The notes beneath the pieces are model-generated. The model did not search any database, was not told the origin of the DNA, and saw only the letters and a list, made by a program, of their open reading frames with translations. Shown here in pieces: positions 22,699 to 28,276 of a DNA stretch of 64,000 bases. The position numbers and the translations under genes are program-made. Source of the stretch: Leucobacter sp. L43 (GTDB lineage Bacteria; Actinomycetota; Actinomycetes; Actinomycetales; Microbacteriaceae); NCBI RefSeq assembly GCF_016597785.1, contig NZ_JAENJG010000001.1, positions 620,001 to 684,000 of the forward strand, given 5' to 3'. Within the stretch, counting starts at the first letter, position 1. The number at the start of each line of letters is the position of its first letter.

Positions 22699-22883
22699 CG
22701 CACTCCTCTCGGGCCCTGACGGGCACCCCACCATTATCGCCTATGACGGGGCTTCGCACCGATCGGGCTTCTCCGCAACGCGTGGTGAATCGCCCCCGCT
22801 GGCCCATCGGGCGACCTGAGCAGCGCCTGGGCACCTCTGCGCTCGGATCGTGCGACACTGAAGACGACCCCGAGAGCAGGGGT

Positions 22884-22922
22884 GCGGACGAGGGAGCAGT
22901 ACCCGCATATCGACGACTGCCA
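22884..22922 (+). ncRNA. Guanidine-III (ykkC-III) riboswitch
   Basis: The RNA begins UGCGGACGAGG and continues through a short loop to ACCCGCA. The stem UGCGG (22884-22888) pairs perfectly with CCGCA (22904-22908). Loop bases GCAGU (22897-22901) pair with ACUGC (22917-22921) to make an H-type pseudoknot. The invariant CGGACGAGG, the GUACCCG stretch and the GAC before the 3' pseudoknot strand match the class-III guanidine aptamer as I know it from Thermobifida. It ends 14 bases before the first SMR gene, so ligand binding would act at translation initiation. Guanidinium should switch on the exporter genes. This class is established upstream of SMR genes in actinobacteria. Confidence 0.82.
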
Positions 22923-22936
22923 GAAAGACCGAACTC

Positions 22937-23257
22937 ATGTCACTGGCATGGATACTGCTGATTCTGAGTGGAATGCTCGAAGCCGTGTGGGCGACCGCAC
23001 TCGACGCTTCGAGAGGATTCCGCCGCTTCTGGCCGACCGCGCTGTTCGTGGTGAGCTACGTCGCCAGCATGGCGGGCCTGGCCTACGGCATGCTCGAGAT
23101 CCCGGTCGGCACCGCGTACGCGGTGTGGGTGGGAATCGGCGCGGTACTCACCGCGGCCTGGGCGATGCTCACCGGCGCCGACCGGGCGAGCCTCATCCGC
23201 GTCGTGCTGCTCGCCGGGCTCATCGCCTGCGTCGTCGGCCTGAAGGCGGTGAGCTGA
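22937..23257 (+). CDS. SMR family guanidinium exporter subunit 1 (Gdx/SugE type)
   Basis: 106 residues with four transmembrane helices, a small multidrug resistance protein. The conserved membrane glutamate is E15 in LILSGMLEAVWATAL, the Gdx/SugE-type pattern (GxxExxWAxAL) rather than the EmrE-type one. Helix 3 has the GTAYAVWVGIG signature. A guanidine-III riboswitch precedes it directly, which marks the pair as a proton-coupled guanidinium exporter. The second SMR gene starts two bases after its stop codon, so the two are probably made together as a heterodimer. Confidence 0.9.
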   Translation: MSLAWILLILSGMLEAVWATALDASRGFRRFWPTALFVVSYVASMAGLAYGMLEIPVGTAYAVWVGIGAVLTAAWAMLTGADRASLIRVVLLAGLIACVVGLKAVS

Positions 23258-23258
23258 G

Positions 23259-23651
23259 ATGGTACGCGCGATCCGCGCCGCTTCACGTCGCGAGGCCCCT
23301 GCGCGCGCCCCGAAGGTCGCTCGACGAGCGCACTGGATCGTGCTGCTGGCGAGCGCGATCCTCGAATCCGTCTGGGCGCTCGCACTGCACGATTCCCGCG
23401 GGTTCACCGAGGTCGTACCGACGATCGTGTTCTTCGTCGCCAACCCGCTGAGCATGGTCGGCTTGGGCTACGCGATGCGCGGCATCCCCGTGAGTACCGC
23501 CTACGCCATCTGGACGGGGCTCGGGGCGGCGCTCACCGTCGGCGCGTCCCTGCTGCTCGGCACCGAGGCGCCCTCCGTGCTCAAGCTGGTGTTCCTCGCC
23601 GGGATCATCGGGTGCGTCATCGGGCTCAAGTTCGTGAAGGATCCGGCGTAG
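23259..23651 (+). CDS. SMR family guanidinium exporter subunit 2
   Basis: 130 residues, a second SMR protein with four helices and the key glutamate in LLASAILESVWALALHDS (about residue 36), plus STAYAIWTGLG in helix 3. A basic hydrophilic extension of about 25 residues (MVRAIRAASRREAPARAPK) precedes helix 1 and is absent from its partner. Such asymmetry is common in paired SMR genes, where the two subunits take opposite orientations in the membrane. It begins two bases after the first SMR stop, and its 3' end overlaps the convergent DtxR-family gene by 26 bases. Confidence 0.88.
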   Translation: MVRAIRAASRREAPARAPKVARRAHWIVLLASAILESVWALALHDSRGFTEVVPTIVFFVANPLSMVGLGYAMRGIPVSTAYAIWTGLGAALTVGASLLLGTEAPSVLKLVFLAGIIGCVIGLKFVKDPA

Positions 23652-24336
23652 CTTCGAGCGACACCCAGACCGCTGCCGCCGCGGATGGTCCCAGACTCAC
23701 GGAACCACCCGCGGCCGTAGCGTCGTCGCCGACGCGCACCGTGACCGTCTCGGAGTAGGGCTCGCCCGGCAGCACGTGCAGCACCGCATCGACGACGACG
23801 CCCCGAGCTGCGAAGAACTGCAGCATGCCGTTGTCGGCGTCGGAGATGCGCTCGACGCGCGCACGACTCGGCGCGGGGGCCGCAAGCAACTGCATCGCGT
23901 CGGGCCGATGCACGGCACCGGTCGCGCTCGGTATCGGATCGCCATGGGGGTCGCGCGTCGGATACCCGAGCACGCGATCCATGCGATCGATGAACTCGTC
24001 CGAAACGGCGTGCTCGAGGCGGTCGGCTTCGTCGTGCACCTCGTCCCACTCGTATTCGAGGTGACGCACGAGAAACGTCTCGAGGAGGCGATGCCGCCGA
24101 ATCATCGCGACGGCATGGCCTCGACCGAGATCGGTGAGCGTGACGGTGCCGTAGCGCACGTGGCCGATGAGTTCGAGGTCTGAGAGCTTGCGAAGGGCAT
24201 CGGAGACGGTGGAGAGCCGCACTCCAGCGGACTCGGCGATCGCGGAGTTCGACACGGGGGCGTCGGACCACTCCTGCAGCCCCCAGATCACCTTGAGGTA
24301 ATTCTGCACGCTCGGAGACAGATCATCGACACTCAC
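23626..24336 (-). CDS. DtxR/MntR-family metal-dependent repressor
   Basis: 236 residues from a GTG at 24336 (VSVDDLSPSVQNYL). The frame stays open upstream, but nothing there resembles the family. It has an N-terminal winged helix (NSAIAESAGVRLSTVSDALRKLSDLEL), a dimerisation/metal domain and a C-terminal SH3-like FeoA domain (about 150-230). In the metal site RLEH...SDE the Glu and His are kept, but the position of DtxR Cys102 is Asp (EADRLEH), which favours a manganese regulator such as MntR over iron-sensing DtxR/IdeR (inference). It is divergent from the LacI gene across 190 bp. Confidence 0.85.
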   Translation of the reverse strand: MSVDDLSPSVQNYLKVIWGLQEWSDAPVSNSAIAESAGVRLSTVSDALRKLSDLELIGHVRYGTVTLTDLGRGHAVAMIRRHRLLETFLVRHLEYEWDEVHDEADRLEHAVSDEFIDRMDRVLGYPTRDPHGDPIPSATGAVHRPDAMQLLAAPAPSRARVERISDADNGMLQFFAARGVVVDAVLHVLPGEPYSETVTVRVGDDATAAGGSVSLGPSAAAAVWVSLEATPDPSRT

Positions 24337-25591: not shown

Positions 25592-27082
25592 TCACCTGCG
25601 TGCGGTTCGCGCGGGAGCGAAGTCCTCGCGATCGTCCTCGGATTCATCGCGCTCGAACACGACGATCGTGGATCCGGTGCTGGCCGCGTGCAGACGCTTG
25701 CGGTGCACCCAGGCCTCGATCGCCACGCCGAGCACACCGACCACGGCGACGCCGATCACCGTCGACCAGTCGGTCGCCCACCCGGCTCCCGATTCCCGGG
25801 GCCACGCGACGTTCACGATCTGGAACAGCAGCCACACGAGTGCGAGCCACCCGACGACGCGGCCGGCCCGGCCGAGGAAGAGACCGGGTTCGTCCCTCCA
25901 GGTGCCGCGAGCGCGTGCGATCGCCCACCCCAGTATCGGGAAGAGGAAGGAGATGAAGAAGCCGACCGACGAGAACGAGATGAGCGCCATCTGAATGCCC
26001 TCGCTCTGGAACGGCAGGAACAGCAGCGCTGCGATCACGGCGGTGATGAGAACGGCGGTGCGCGGCAGGCCCGTCTCTCCCGACAGCCTCGTCAGGGTGC
26101 GCGCGAACGGGAGCTCCCCGTTGCGCGCCGTCGCCCAGACGATGCGCGAGACGGTGATCTGGATCGTCATGAGGCTCGCCGCGAAGGCGATCACGAACAG
26201 CGCCAGGATTCCGCGGAATATCGGTGCGGGGAATGATGCTGCGATGATCGCCACGGCCGGATCCGCAGCGTTCTCCGGGTCCTGCAGGAACGCGTCGCTC
26301 GGAACGGCGAGCGTGAACGCGAGCGTGCTGAGGAGCACGATGATCATGATGGCGAAGAACGAGGCGACCATCGCGCGCGGCACGGCGCGCTTGGGGCGCT
26401 GCACCTCCTCGGCGATCGAGCTCGCGCTCTCGAAGCCGATCGCGAAGTAGCTGGAGAAGGCGATCGCCATCACCAGCGGCGCTGAGAAGAACACGCCGCT
26501 GTAATCGGCGAGCGATGCCGGGGAGAGGTACTCGAGCGTCTGATGGCGCTCGAAGAACAGGAGCCAGATCGCCACGCCGACGGAGCCGACGGCCTCGGCG
26601 GCGATGACCGCGATCATGAGAATCTTGATGAACACCCGCCCCGCCAGATTCACCATCGTCGAGAAGGCGAGGATGCCGATCGCGAGCCAGGTGACCACCT
26701 GGTGGCCTGCGGCCGGGATGTCGAAGATCGGCGGGATGAGCACGGCTCCCGCGTACGCCACCGCTGGCAGGGTGATGAGCAACGTGCAGATGTACGTCCA
26801 GGAGGCGAACCAGCCGTATCGATGGCCGAGCAGTCGACGCGACCACTGATAGATGCCGCCGGAGTCGGCCCACTTCGATGCCAGCACCCCCAGCGCGAGG
26901 ACGACGATCAGCTGACCGATGTAGAGGATGAGTCCGCCCCAGATGAAGGCGGGGCCAGAACTGGCGAGGCCGACGCCGAGAACGCTGTACAGCGCGACGA
27001 TCGGCGAAACGAACGCGAACGCGACTGAGAGCGCGGAAAACATGGTGAATTCTCTCTTCATCACCGGTGGCGCCGTGGTCAT
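25592..27082 (-). CDS. APC family amino acid/amine permease
   Basis: 496 residues and about 12 transmembrane helices, from the ATG at 27082. That start has AAAGGAG 7 bases upstream and begins MTTAPPVMKREFTMF; an earlier in-frame start has none. Helix 1 shows FAFVSPIVALYSVLGVGL, and a conserved SxSS.IAEE loop (FESASSIAEEVQRPKRAVPRA) is typical of the amino acid-polyamine-choline superfamily. The C-terminal tail is hydrophilic. It lies upstream of the agmatinase-family gene on neither strand's immediate operon but in the same direction and 204 bases downstream of it, so cotranscription is possible. Substrate is probably an amino acid, polyamine or guanidino compound. Confidence 0.85.
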   Translation of the reverse strand: MTTAPPVMKREFTMFSALSVAFAFVSPIVALYSVLGVGLASSGPAFIWGGLILYIGQLIVVLALGVLASKWADSGGIYQWSRRLLGHRYGWFASWTYICTLLITLPAVAYAGAVLIPPIFDIPAAGHQVVTWLAIGILAFSTMVNLAGRVFIKILMIAVIAAEAVGSVGVAIWLLFFERHQTLEYLSPASLADYSGVFFSAPLVMAIAFSSYFAIGFESASSIAEEVQRPKRAVPRAMVASFFAIMIIVLLSTLAFTLAVPSDAFLQDPENAADPAVAIIAASFPAPIFRGILALFVIAFAASLMTIQITVSRIVWATARNGELPFARTLTRLSGETGLPRTAVLITAVIAALLFLPFQSEGIQMALISFSSVGFFISFLFPILGWAIARARGTWRDEPGLFLGRAGRVVGWLALVWLLFQIVNVAWPRESGAGWATDWSTVIGVAVVGVLGVAIEAWVHRKRLHAASTGSTIVVFERDESEDDREDFAPARTARR

Positions 27083-27110
27083 GGAAACTCCTTTGCTTCG
27101 TGTACGGCGG

Positions 27111-27138
27111 CGGTTCGCGCCGTCATTGGCGCGAACCG
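27111..27138 (-). promoter_or_regulatory. 11-bp perfect inverted repeat upstream of the permease gene
   Basis: CGGTTCGCGCC (27111-27121) and GGCGCGAACCG (27128-27138) flank a 6-base loop, 28 bases upstream of the permease ATG. It could be an operator, or an RNA hairpin between the ureohydrolase and permease genes that sets their relative expression. There is no U-tract. Confidence 0.45.
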
Positions 27139-27286
27139 TCTGGGAAGTGCTGCGGGCCACCCGCCGGTGCCCCTGCCCTGCTCGGCGCGAACGGCGAGAA
27201 CGGCATCCGAGTCGTGCGCCTGCACCGTGCGTCGCCCGCCCGCCCGGATCGGCGGCGACCCGGGCGAGCGAGATCGAACCGTTGGT

Positions 27287-28276
27287 TCAGCCCACGTAGA
27301 CCGGTGTGCGAGGCGCTCCGGCGTGCGACGCGAGGGCCTCCAGTGCGATGCGGCCCGCGACGAGCTGTGTCCGCGTCGAGTGGTCGAGCGACGGTGCGGG
27401 CTCCGCGATGTCCACCCCGATGAGGCCGGCGGGCGAGATGCCTCGCACGATCTCGATCGCCTCGCGCATGGTCATTCCGCCCGGGGTGGGAGCGCACGTG
27501 CCCGGCGCGAATGCCGCGTCGAGTGCGTCGACGTCGAACGTGAGGTAGAACCCCTCCTCGCCGACGCGTTCGAGGATCTGCTCAACGGCCCATGCCGTGC
27601 CGCGCTCCCAGATGTCCTCGAGCCAGATGACGCGAATGCCGTGGTCCCGGCAGTACTTGAGCTCGGTCTTCGGGTTCATCCAGCCGCTGATGCCGACGAG
27701 CACCATCTTTGCCGGGTCGTAGCCGTTGTCGACGGCCCTCGTGATGGTGCAGCAGTGATTGAGCTCCTCCCCTCCCACATTCGGTGCGGCATCGAGATGG
27801 GTGTCGAACTGCACCCACCCGGGGTTCGTCCCCTCCCGCTTGGCGGCCTTCCCGACGGGGATGCTCACGGAATGATCTCCGCCGAAGACGACCGGGATCG
27901 CGCCCGCCGCCACGATCTCTGCGATGTCGGCTTCGACGCGCTCGAACGTCTTCGGCGTGTTCCCGAGTGCGACGTGGCAATCGCCCCCGTCGACGAGCGG
28001 CAGGTGCGCGAACAGGTCGAAGTCGAACGTCGCTTGGAAGTTGGTGAACTGCACCGACGTCTCGCGAATGGCGCGCGGGCCGTAATTGGCACCGCTGCGG
28101 CTGATCGTCGTCGCGTCGAAGGGGAAGCCGTAGACGACCGCTTTCGCGCCGGATGCACGGATCGCCTCCCGGTCGAGCTCCACCTTCGGCACCCCCATGA
28201 ACGTTCCGCCGAGCCCGCCGTGCAGCAGGCCGTTCCACATGGTCTCGTCGAAGGATCCCGTCGCCGTTTCAGTCAT
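27287..28276 (-). CDS. Ureohydrolase family protein (agmatinase-like)
   Basis: 329 residues of the arginase/agmatinase family, which hydrolyse a guanidino group to urea. All six di-manganese ligands are present: H135 in GGDHS, D158/H160/D162 in FDTHLD (the usual DAHxD with Thr for Ala) and D248/D250 in FDVDALDAAFAPG (Ala for the usual Pro after the third Asp). The second half contains NHCCTI where agmatinases have DHGTMF, so the specificity loop differs. Possible substrates are agmatine, guanidinobutyrate, guanidinopropionate or guanidine itself. Two LacI-type operators lie upstream, and an APC permease follows, suggesting an inducible uptake and breakdown unit. Confidence 0.85.
   Translation of the reverse strand: MTETATGSFDETMWNGLLHGGLGGTFMGVPKVELDREAIRASGAKAVVYGFPFDATTISRSGANYGPRAIRETSVQFTNFQATFDFDLFAHLPLVDGGDCHVALGNTPKTFERVEADIAEIVAAGAIPVVFGGDHSVSIPVGKAAKREGTNPGWVQFDTHLDAAPNVGGEELNHCCTITRAVDNGYDPAKMVLVGISGWMNPKTELKYCRDHGIRVIWLEDIWERGTAWAVEQILERVGEEGFYLTFDVDALDAAFAPGTCAPTPGGMTMREAIEIVRGISPAGLIGVDIAEPAPSLDHSTRTQLVAGRIALEALASHAGAPRTPVYVG

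Follow-up and report, generated by a model that had tools for sequence, protein, structure and literature searches.

A putative short-spine guanidine-III-type leader upstream of a Gdx-type SMR gene pair in Leucobacter

Guanidine is a toxic waste product, and the question raised by this locus of Leucobacter sp. L43 is whether the leader in front of its two SMR genes senses guanidine and whether the two genes export it. Neither a guanidine switch in front of a Gdx gene nor a pair of Gdx proteins is new in itself. Guanidine-III was described before emrE- and speB-type genes in 2010 (PMC2864571), its ligand and structure followed in 2017 (PMC5696562), and the literature on which we draw depicts a riboswitch that has guanidine as its ligand and acts in the export or detoxification of this compound (PMC5696562, PMC12186494). 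What appears to be new, on comparison of sequences, is an aptamer with a shortened spine that runs through a whole lineage and has look-alikes in a few other genera; our survey of the literature on guanidine-III/ykkC-III, on SMR/Gdx proteins and on Leucobacter together with guanidine returned no description of this short form, and an earlier publication may exist. For the locus as a whole we favour, with a probability of about 0.85, a short-spine guanidine-III (ykkC-III) riboswitch followed by an obligate Gdx heterodimer that would export guanidinium.

Architecture of the leader RNA

Across the window, i.e., the whole stretch of 64,000 nucleotides that was analysed, no Rfam family matches at its gathering score. 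The earlier note had presented the leader as a class-III guanidine aptamer and had named a covariance-model score below threshold as the outcome that speaks against it. This is the outcome obtained: at a lax threshold the guanidine-III model RF01763 aligns to 22863-22924 over all 67 model positions with 26.2 bits, under its curated gathering cut-off of 36 bits, and the claim survives only through comparison with related leaders, which reveals a shortened variant. Genome-wide, the leader is the first of 22 RF01763 matches (E 0.0024), the runner-up reaching 20.8 bits (E 0.054), and the 23 copies of the short form described below score 20.9-31 bits each, all of them under 36. Because a false match in the sister genome L026, which is devoid of GUACC and in which no aptamer is seen by eye, outscores the leader with 29.4 bits, the score alone cannot decide either way. 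In the normal-form leader of L009, P1, the loop and the 5' strand of P2 are identical to those of L43 (GCGGACGAGGGAGCAGTACCCGC), as is the 3' strand of P2 (ACTGCC); the differences lie in the spine, the linker and P0, and L009 scores 47.0 bits against 26.2 in L43. When 20 loci from the best 80 relatives of the first SMR gene product were scanned, 16 passed the cut-off, the four misses being two Leucobacter loci and two loci without the core.

The leader extends over 22867-22936 of the forward strand, directly before SMR1, and all its parts lie on that strand. It opens with a hairpin, P0 (22867-22871 / 22879-22883, span 22867..22883), that stands immediately 5' of P1, outside the coordinates covered by the earlier note, and has U22883 as its closing base. 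The P1 stem follows in the Rfam alignment at 22884-22887 / 22903-22906 (span 22884..22906) and is paired and invariant in 23/23 short-form leaders. The UGCGG/CCGCA stem proposed earlier is indeed present in the sequence at 22883-22887/22903-22907, except that its outermost U22883-A22907 pair is not conserved as a P1 pair (U-A in 15 of the 23 leaders, C opposite A in six, U/C in one and U/U in one) and that U22883 closes P0 instead. The same alignment places the ACGA loop strand at 22888-22891, whose C22889 and G22890 are predicted ligand contacts equivalent to C6 and G7 of the T. fusca structure, and the proposed GCAGU/ACUGC pseudoknot, P2, is found at 22896-22900 / 22916-22920, with 115/115 cells paired in the 23 leaders; within it, G22899 is the predicted third ligand-contacting base, equivalent to G17 (PMC5696562). 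These three bases, which would hold guanidinium in the P1/P2 pseudoknot, are invariant in 23/23, the C6 and G7 positions being fixed by the search pattern. The CGGACGAGG core claimed before stands at 22885-22893, and what falls is the notion of a fully canonical core, the spine being shortened: GACG (22912..22915) takes the place where GACAAG is normal and A32-A33 are absent. GACG is invariant in 23/23 leaders, being required by the pattern that retrieved them. The distance of 14 bases given between leader and genes is in fact 16, taking the end of the last P2 pair and the first ATG as its limits.

The shortening can be read against the solved structure. In the T. fusca RNA the last strand of the aptamer lies alongside P1; its G29 reaches into P1 to pair with C20, and G28, A30, C31, A32 and A33 form a stack ahead of the passage into P2, the guanidine contacts being C6, G7 and G17. 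Every core base between P1 and P2 is given as more than 97% conserved, a value that may or may not take in A32-A33, and a Kd of 60 uM for guanidine is quoted for the class (PMC5696562). In the leader of Leucobacter sp. L43 the conserved GACAAGAC strand is reduced to GACGAC, and the RF01763 alignment is gapped in this last strand (consensus GCGACAAGACG vs leader UCGACGACUG). We place the loss at A32-A33 because the gap is flanked on either side by a conserved GAC, and the removal of these two bases accounts for the low score of the leader. With guanidine-III (RF01763; T. fusca 5NWQ) the leader has in common P1, the ACGA loop, the H-type P2, the G29-C20 bases, the C6/G7/G17 contacts, the upstream hairpin (in the Rfam model) and the position before a Gdx-type gene; it departs from it in that only two bases, not four, separate G29 from G34, by five P2 pairs where T. 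fusca has seven, and by a linker of nine bases where 65 of the 74 core-bearing relatives (among the best 80 of 552) have 11. Of the features that define the class, the P1 stem, the CGGACGA loop and the H-type P2 pseudoknot are all found, whereas the conserved GACAAG spine between P1 and P2 is not. Because it falls short of both the cut-off and the spine, we regard the leader as a variant that probably works like guanidine-III, and not as a standard member.

The loss of two stacked spine bases could leave binding weak or lost. It could also go along with a changed ligand or tuning, e.g., for a substituted guanidine, the pump still being Gdx; we deem this quite unlikely, even though the two missing bases are near-invariant elsewhere (A[AG]G is kept in 72 of the 74 core-bearing relatives, best 80 of 552), the rest of the aptamer is fixed (35/60 columns invariant in the 23 leaders), small core changes have altered the ligands of guanidine-I relatives and perhaps those of guanidine-IV relatives (PMC9788692), and guanidine-III itself also accepts methyl-, amino- and ethylguanidine as well as agmatine (PMC5696562). 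Against it, the three ligand-touching bases are unaltered, the regulated genes are still of the Gdx type, and the normal form found in the sister species L009-L014 precedes the same kind of pair. If, as we favour, the short-spine leader is of the guanidine-III type and senses guanidine, its P1 stem, ACGA loop, P2 pseudoknot and three ligand-contact bases being intact, then the locus suggests that a near-fixed core may lose two stacked bases and yet stay under selection across a genus, and the short form offers a natural test of how the guanidine-III pocket is built.

Spread and conservation in Leucobacter

The pattern CGGACGA-N(3-9)-GTACCCG-N(3-9)-GACGAC was run on 54 Leucobacter genomes. It finds the short form in 23 of them, exactly once per genome, and its reversed control has no match in the same 54; the short form occurs more often than chance allows. 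A normal GACAAGAC aptamer stands before an SMR gene in 16 other Leucobacter genomes (L009-L023, L029), six of these loci preceding an SMR pair and ten a single SMR gene in the stretch examined. The latter (L015-L023, L029) combine the normal GACAAGAC spine with a GGG...CCC P1 and score 27.5-40 bits, 6/10 below the Rfam cut-off. Neither form was found in the remaining 15 Leucobacter genomes, of which 13 are without an RF01763 match at E 0.1, L026 has the false match and G051 a weak one of 20.4 bits. A recognisable aptamer therefore precedes an SMR gene in 39/54 Leucobacter genomes, some of which also have a weak second match, and only 10/54 pass the cut-off, which means that the library cut-off hides most of the apparent guanidine switches of the genus.

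Of 552 named relatives of SMR1 the best 80 were compared, the closest being those of Leucobacter chromiireducens (85% identity) and L. zeae (78%). A core lies directly upstream in 74 of these 80, with the spine AAG in 71, AGG in one and ACG in two, i.e., 72 with the normal guanidine-III core and two with the short form, both of them the Leucobacter loci; L077 (Bifidobacterium), which is among the six where the pattern finds no core, seems by eye to carry a diverged copy, and an SMR pair follows the leader in 26 of the 80. Normal paired and short-form Leucobacter lie near each other both in a tree of SMR1, drawn from 41/113 SMR1 rows with only 2/10 single-SMR Leucobacter in it, and in a tree of SMR1 and SMR2 with 35 rows; the backbone of both is not resolved, and a single origin of the short form is neither shown nor excluded.

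Across the 23 short-form leaders, identity reaches 90% or more in 39/60 alignment columns, of which 35 are invariant, part of these letters being fixed by the search pattern itself. With few exceptions the conserved columns belong to P1, the core, GACG or P2; variation is seen in the linker and in the loop of P0. Standard pairs fill all 230 cells of P1, P2 and G29-C20. P1 is without variation among the 23, and covariation is limited there to P0 and to one pair of P2, which changes on both sides (A-U to U-G) in 6/23; against these six two-sided cells, shuffling yields 1.5 on average and sliding yields none, though the close kinship of the 23 sequences inflates such counts. P0 retains 5/5 pairs in 23/23 leaders with a loop length free from 4 to 11, and compensating changes are present in its combinations, ACCCC/GGGGU (15), GCCCC/GGGGC (5), AUCCC/GGGAU (2) and GCCUC/GGGGC (1). 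A wider alignment joins L43 to 73 normal leaders (74 in total, 70 distinct), which were picked by a pattern requiring the normal spine and are uninformative on spine constancy. In this set 98.7% of cells pair and two-sided cells number 62 vs 20.8 in shuffles; the pairs showing two-sided changes are four, three of them in P2, a number reached by 73/500 shuffles and not unusual. The first P1 pair is C-G in 61 and G-C in eight of the 70 distinct sequences. Taken as sequence comparison, this argues that the short-form leader is kept by selection.

A decayed riboswitch, in which the two-base loss broke binding and left the pair constitutively expressed, is the least probable of the readings weighed here. 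It would accord with the score under the Rfam cut-off, with a Shine-Dalgarno sequence weaker than in normal Leucobacter leaders and with a predicted accessibility change that in L43 goes opposite to the expected direction (-0.13). A relic would drift, however, and for that reason the conservation speaks against decay: the 39/60 columns at or above 90% identity are shared by 23 species and lie almost all in P1, the core, GACG and P2, and the two-sided P2 change preserves pairing in 6/23.

The SMR gene pair and its expression

SMR1 (22937-23257, forward strand, 106 aa, predicted N-out/C-out) and SMR2 (23259-23651, forward strand, 130 aa, predicted N-in/C-in) both look like Gdx-type subunits and match PF00893 with 74.2 and 66.3 bits (cut-off 23.7 bits); no further PF00893 protein was found in the L43 genome. 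One base (23258) separates the genes, not two as had been reported. An SMR pair lies downstream in 23/23 short-form loci, and the earlier claim, a Gdx-type pair preceded immediately by a guanidine-III-type leader, is supported by sequence comparison. The two-gene layout is also that of the paired SMRs EbrAB, MdtIJ and YkkCD, which are of other subtypes than the L43 pair; the Ebr and Mdt models give 24-49 bits on SMR1/SMR2 vs 78-84 for SugE.

For both subunits the best solved relative is 6wk5, whose sequence equals that of 6wk9 (Gdx-Clo), with ungapped alignments of 62.3 bits for SMR1 and 63.5 bits for SMR2, as compared with 43.9 and 24.3 bits against EmrE. The central Glu, the two Trp, the Ser and the switch Tyr of Gdx-Clo (E13, W16, S42, Y59 and W62, as listed in PMC9574504) recur as E15, W18, S44, Y61 and W64 in SMR1 and as E36, W39, S65, Y82 and W85 in SMR2, and the GXG fulcrum is in both as well. 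Since EmrE also possesses W63 and S42 (PMC9574504), those residues alone do not separate Gdx from Qac.

What sets the L43 pair apart from Gdx-Clo is that it consists of two unlike subunits of opposite bias, SMR2 bearing a basic N-terminal extension. According to PMC9574504, an SMR pair forms a fixed heterodimer, about 20% of Gdx are paired, adjacent SMR pairs show opposite bias in more than 95% of cases, and Gdx exchange two protons. Calculated with the formula of that paper and approximate loop limits, the Arg/Lys bias is -3 for SMR1 and +10 for SMR2, and it is opposite in 18/18 parsed short-form pairs (SMR1 -2 to -6, SMR2 +5 to +10), the parsing covering 18 of the 23 pairs and leaving out L118, L122, L123, L131 and L136. 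Adjacent genes and opposite bias are what the PSMR heterodimers share with the L43 pair; their inward subunits centre on +4 (PMC9574504), and the +10 of SMR2 is higher owing to its extension. This 25-residue basic extension was correctly reported; it is N-terminal (23259..23333, forward strand) and contains 8 Arg/Lys. An asymmetric heterodimer had been suggested on its account: the asymmetry is supported by the opposite bias of -3/+10, while the extension is not its source, because SMR2 without it is still at +2 by the same formula and pairs without an extension occur (L014, L041, L042, L043, L045, L117). In the 18/18 parsed loci the extension measures 7-28 residues with 1-8 Arg/Lys and a variable sequence, as would befit a topology aid rather than a domain.

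One may ask whether SMR1 and SMR2 could instead each form a homodimer of its own, or pump multiple drugs (Qac) or polyamines. The best NCBIfam model for both is named quaternary ammonium SugE (84.1 and 77.5 bits, under its cut-off of 126), which would suit such pumps. Yet the charge bias of the two is opposite, their genes lie one base apart, no other SMR was found in the genome, and Gdx-Clo, not EmrE, is the best solved relative of both; we hold these alternatives to be very improbable. SMR1 and SMR2 probably form one guanidinium-exporting heterodimer: the two proteins would insert in opposite orientations into one obligate antiparallel dimer, which would exchange guanidinium for two protons, and a pair otherwise annotated as 'multidrug' pumps would likely be a guanidinium exporter.

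As to the start of transcription, an extended -10-like element, TGCGACACT (22851..22859, forward strand), is a candidate that would place it near P0, and the transcribed leader would then be almost wholly aptamer. The motif TGN(1-2)[GT]ANNNT occurs 32-34 bases before P1 in 18/23 short-form loci (control windows 0/0/0) and in the near window of 42/72 other, normal loci (controls 16/2/1). A sigma-70 consensus scan of 22700-23000 returned no promoter, and a simple consensus scan of the same interval no terminator-like site. The Shine-Dalgarno sequence is weak, the candidate in the sequence being GAAAG (22923..22927, forward strand), two bases past P2. A ribosome-binding site so close to P2, together with the absence of a terminator-like site from that scan, fits control of translation or of mRNA stability, as has been proposed for the guanidine-III class (PMC12186494); with the ligand bound, the two-gene operon would be translated more and/or its mRNA be more stable, an ON direction that we borrow from the class. 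When the aptamer is folded in silico, the accessibility of the start region changes by a mean of 0.032 in the 23 leaders vs 0.014 with shuffled aptamers and exceeds the shuffled mean in 13/23; in L43 itself the sign is reversed (-0.13). The minimum-energy fold of the leader (-33.7 kcal/mol, z -2.06) pairs GCAGUACCC with SMR1 codons; around the start codon, UGCCAG and CUGGCA pair with each other. We considered this fold as a possible OFF form and set it aside, since among the 23 leaders L119, L124 and L125 alone have both coding halves and the accessibility changes are mixed.

In the vicinity of the pair, a gene for a DtxR/MntR-type metal-dependent repressor (23626-24333, reverse strand) is convergent and overlaps with its 3' end the last 26 bases of SMR2. 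An agmatinase-family enzyme is encoded at 27287-28276 on the reverse strand, 3.6 kb from the exporter and outside the control of this riboswitch, and adjoins an amino acid permease gene (25592-27160). The best solved relatives of the agmatinase-family enzyme are 'Probable agmatinase 2' (7esr/7oi1, 161.7 bits), a guanidine hydrolase, guanidinobutyrase (157.5 bits) and metformin hydrolase A (154.0 bits), so that several substrates are conceivable.

Short spines and related aptamers beyond Leucobacter

The exact short-form pattern, run on 394 genomes of the class, matched 28 of them, the reversed control three. Four of the 28 were retained as short form (the L43 window, L146, L147 and L149). Many of the others have a normal AAG, with GACGAC lying inside the P2 strand behind it; L144 and L145 have a normal GACAAGAC downstream of the matched letters, L161-L163 appear within coding sequence, and the remainder were judged from the matched string alone. 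A looser pattern matched in 184 of 398 genomes of the family (reversed control 8), and nine leaders (L150-L158) were retained among the matches listed, of which only the aptamer-like ones were examined as leaders. A spine ending in GACG or CACG is thus found, among the matches listed, in L157 (one genome of g79, another genus of Microbacteriaceae) before an SMR gene and in eight leaders of g5, g57, g55 and g68 (L150-L156, L158) before a protein of about 85 residues, to which L146, L147 (g123) and L149 (g117) add three further leaders from the class. L146, L147, L149 and L153-L156 pass the Rfam cut-off with 41.1-45.4 bits; L150, L151, L152, L157 and L158 stay below it with 26.4-34.2 bits. Since some short spines pass, a short spine alone does not exclude membership of the family, and part of the short-spine variation is already within reach of the library, which tempers the novelty. 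It is tempting to see the NACG-for-ACAAG spines as a convergent and structurally distinct guanidine-III subclass with the pocket held differently and the affinity or ligand range retuned, spanning Leucobacter and g79 before SMR genes and other actinobacterial genera before the small membrane-type protein; such a subclass seems to us rather unlikely.

The protein of about 85 residues deserves a word of its own. Guanidine-III-like aptamers precede it in several actinobacterial genera (L148, L150-L156, L158, L159, L160), and it is conserved, with the motif GSLLVLAGFALAQ ... GSGxLAVDA ... QWGFLLLEGVWAxVS. No Pfam match was obtained in the two members scanned, the protein presumably resembles CBU_0592-type membrane proteins, and its family may be linked to guanidine.

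A further peculiarity is a mismatch kept within P2, GCGCCGU opposite ACGACGC with C opposite A at positions 15-38, in L153-L156, L159, L160 and L164-L177. It coincides with a base triple of the solved structure, and the exact pattern is found in 14/394 genomes of the class, where what follows it includes SMR genes and the ~85-residue protein. Finally, the aptamers of L146 (42.0 bits) and L147 (41.1 bits) stand directly before a gene for an isochorismatase-family hydrolase (PF00857 in L146, L147 being alike by eye), an unusual partner.
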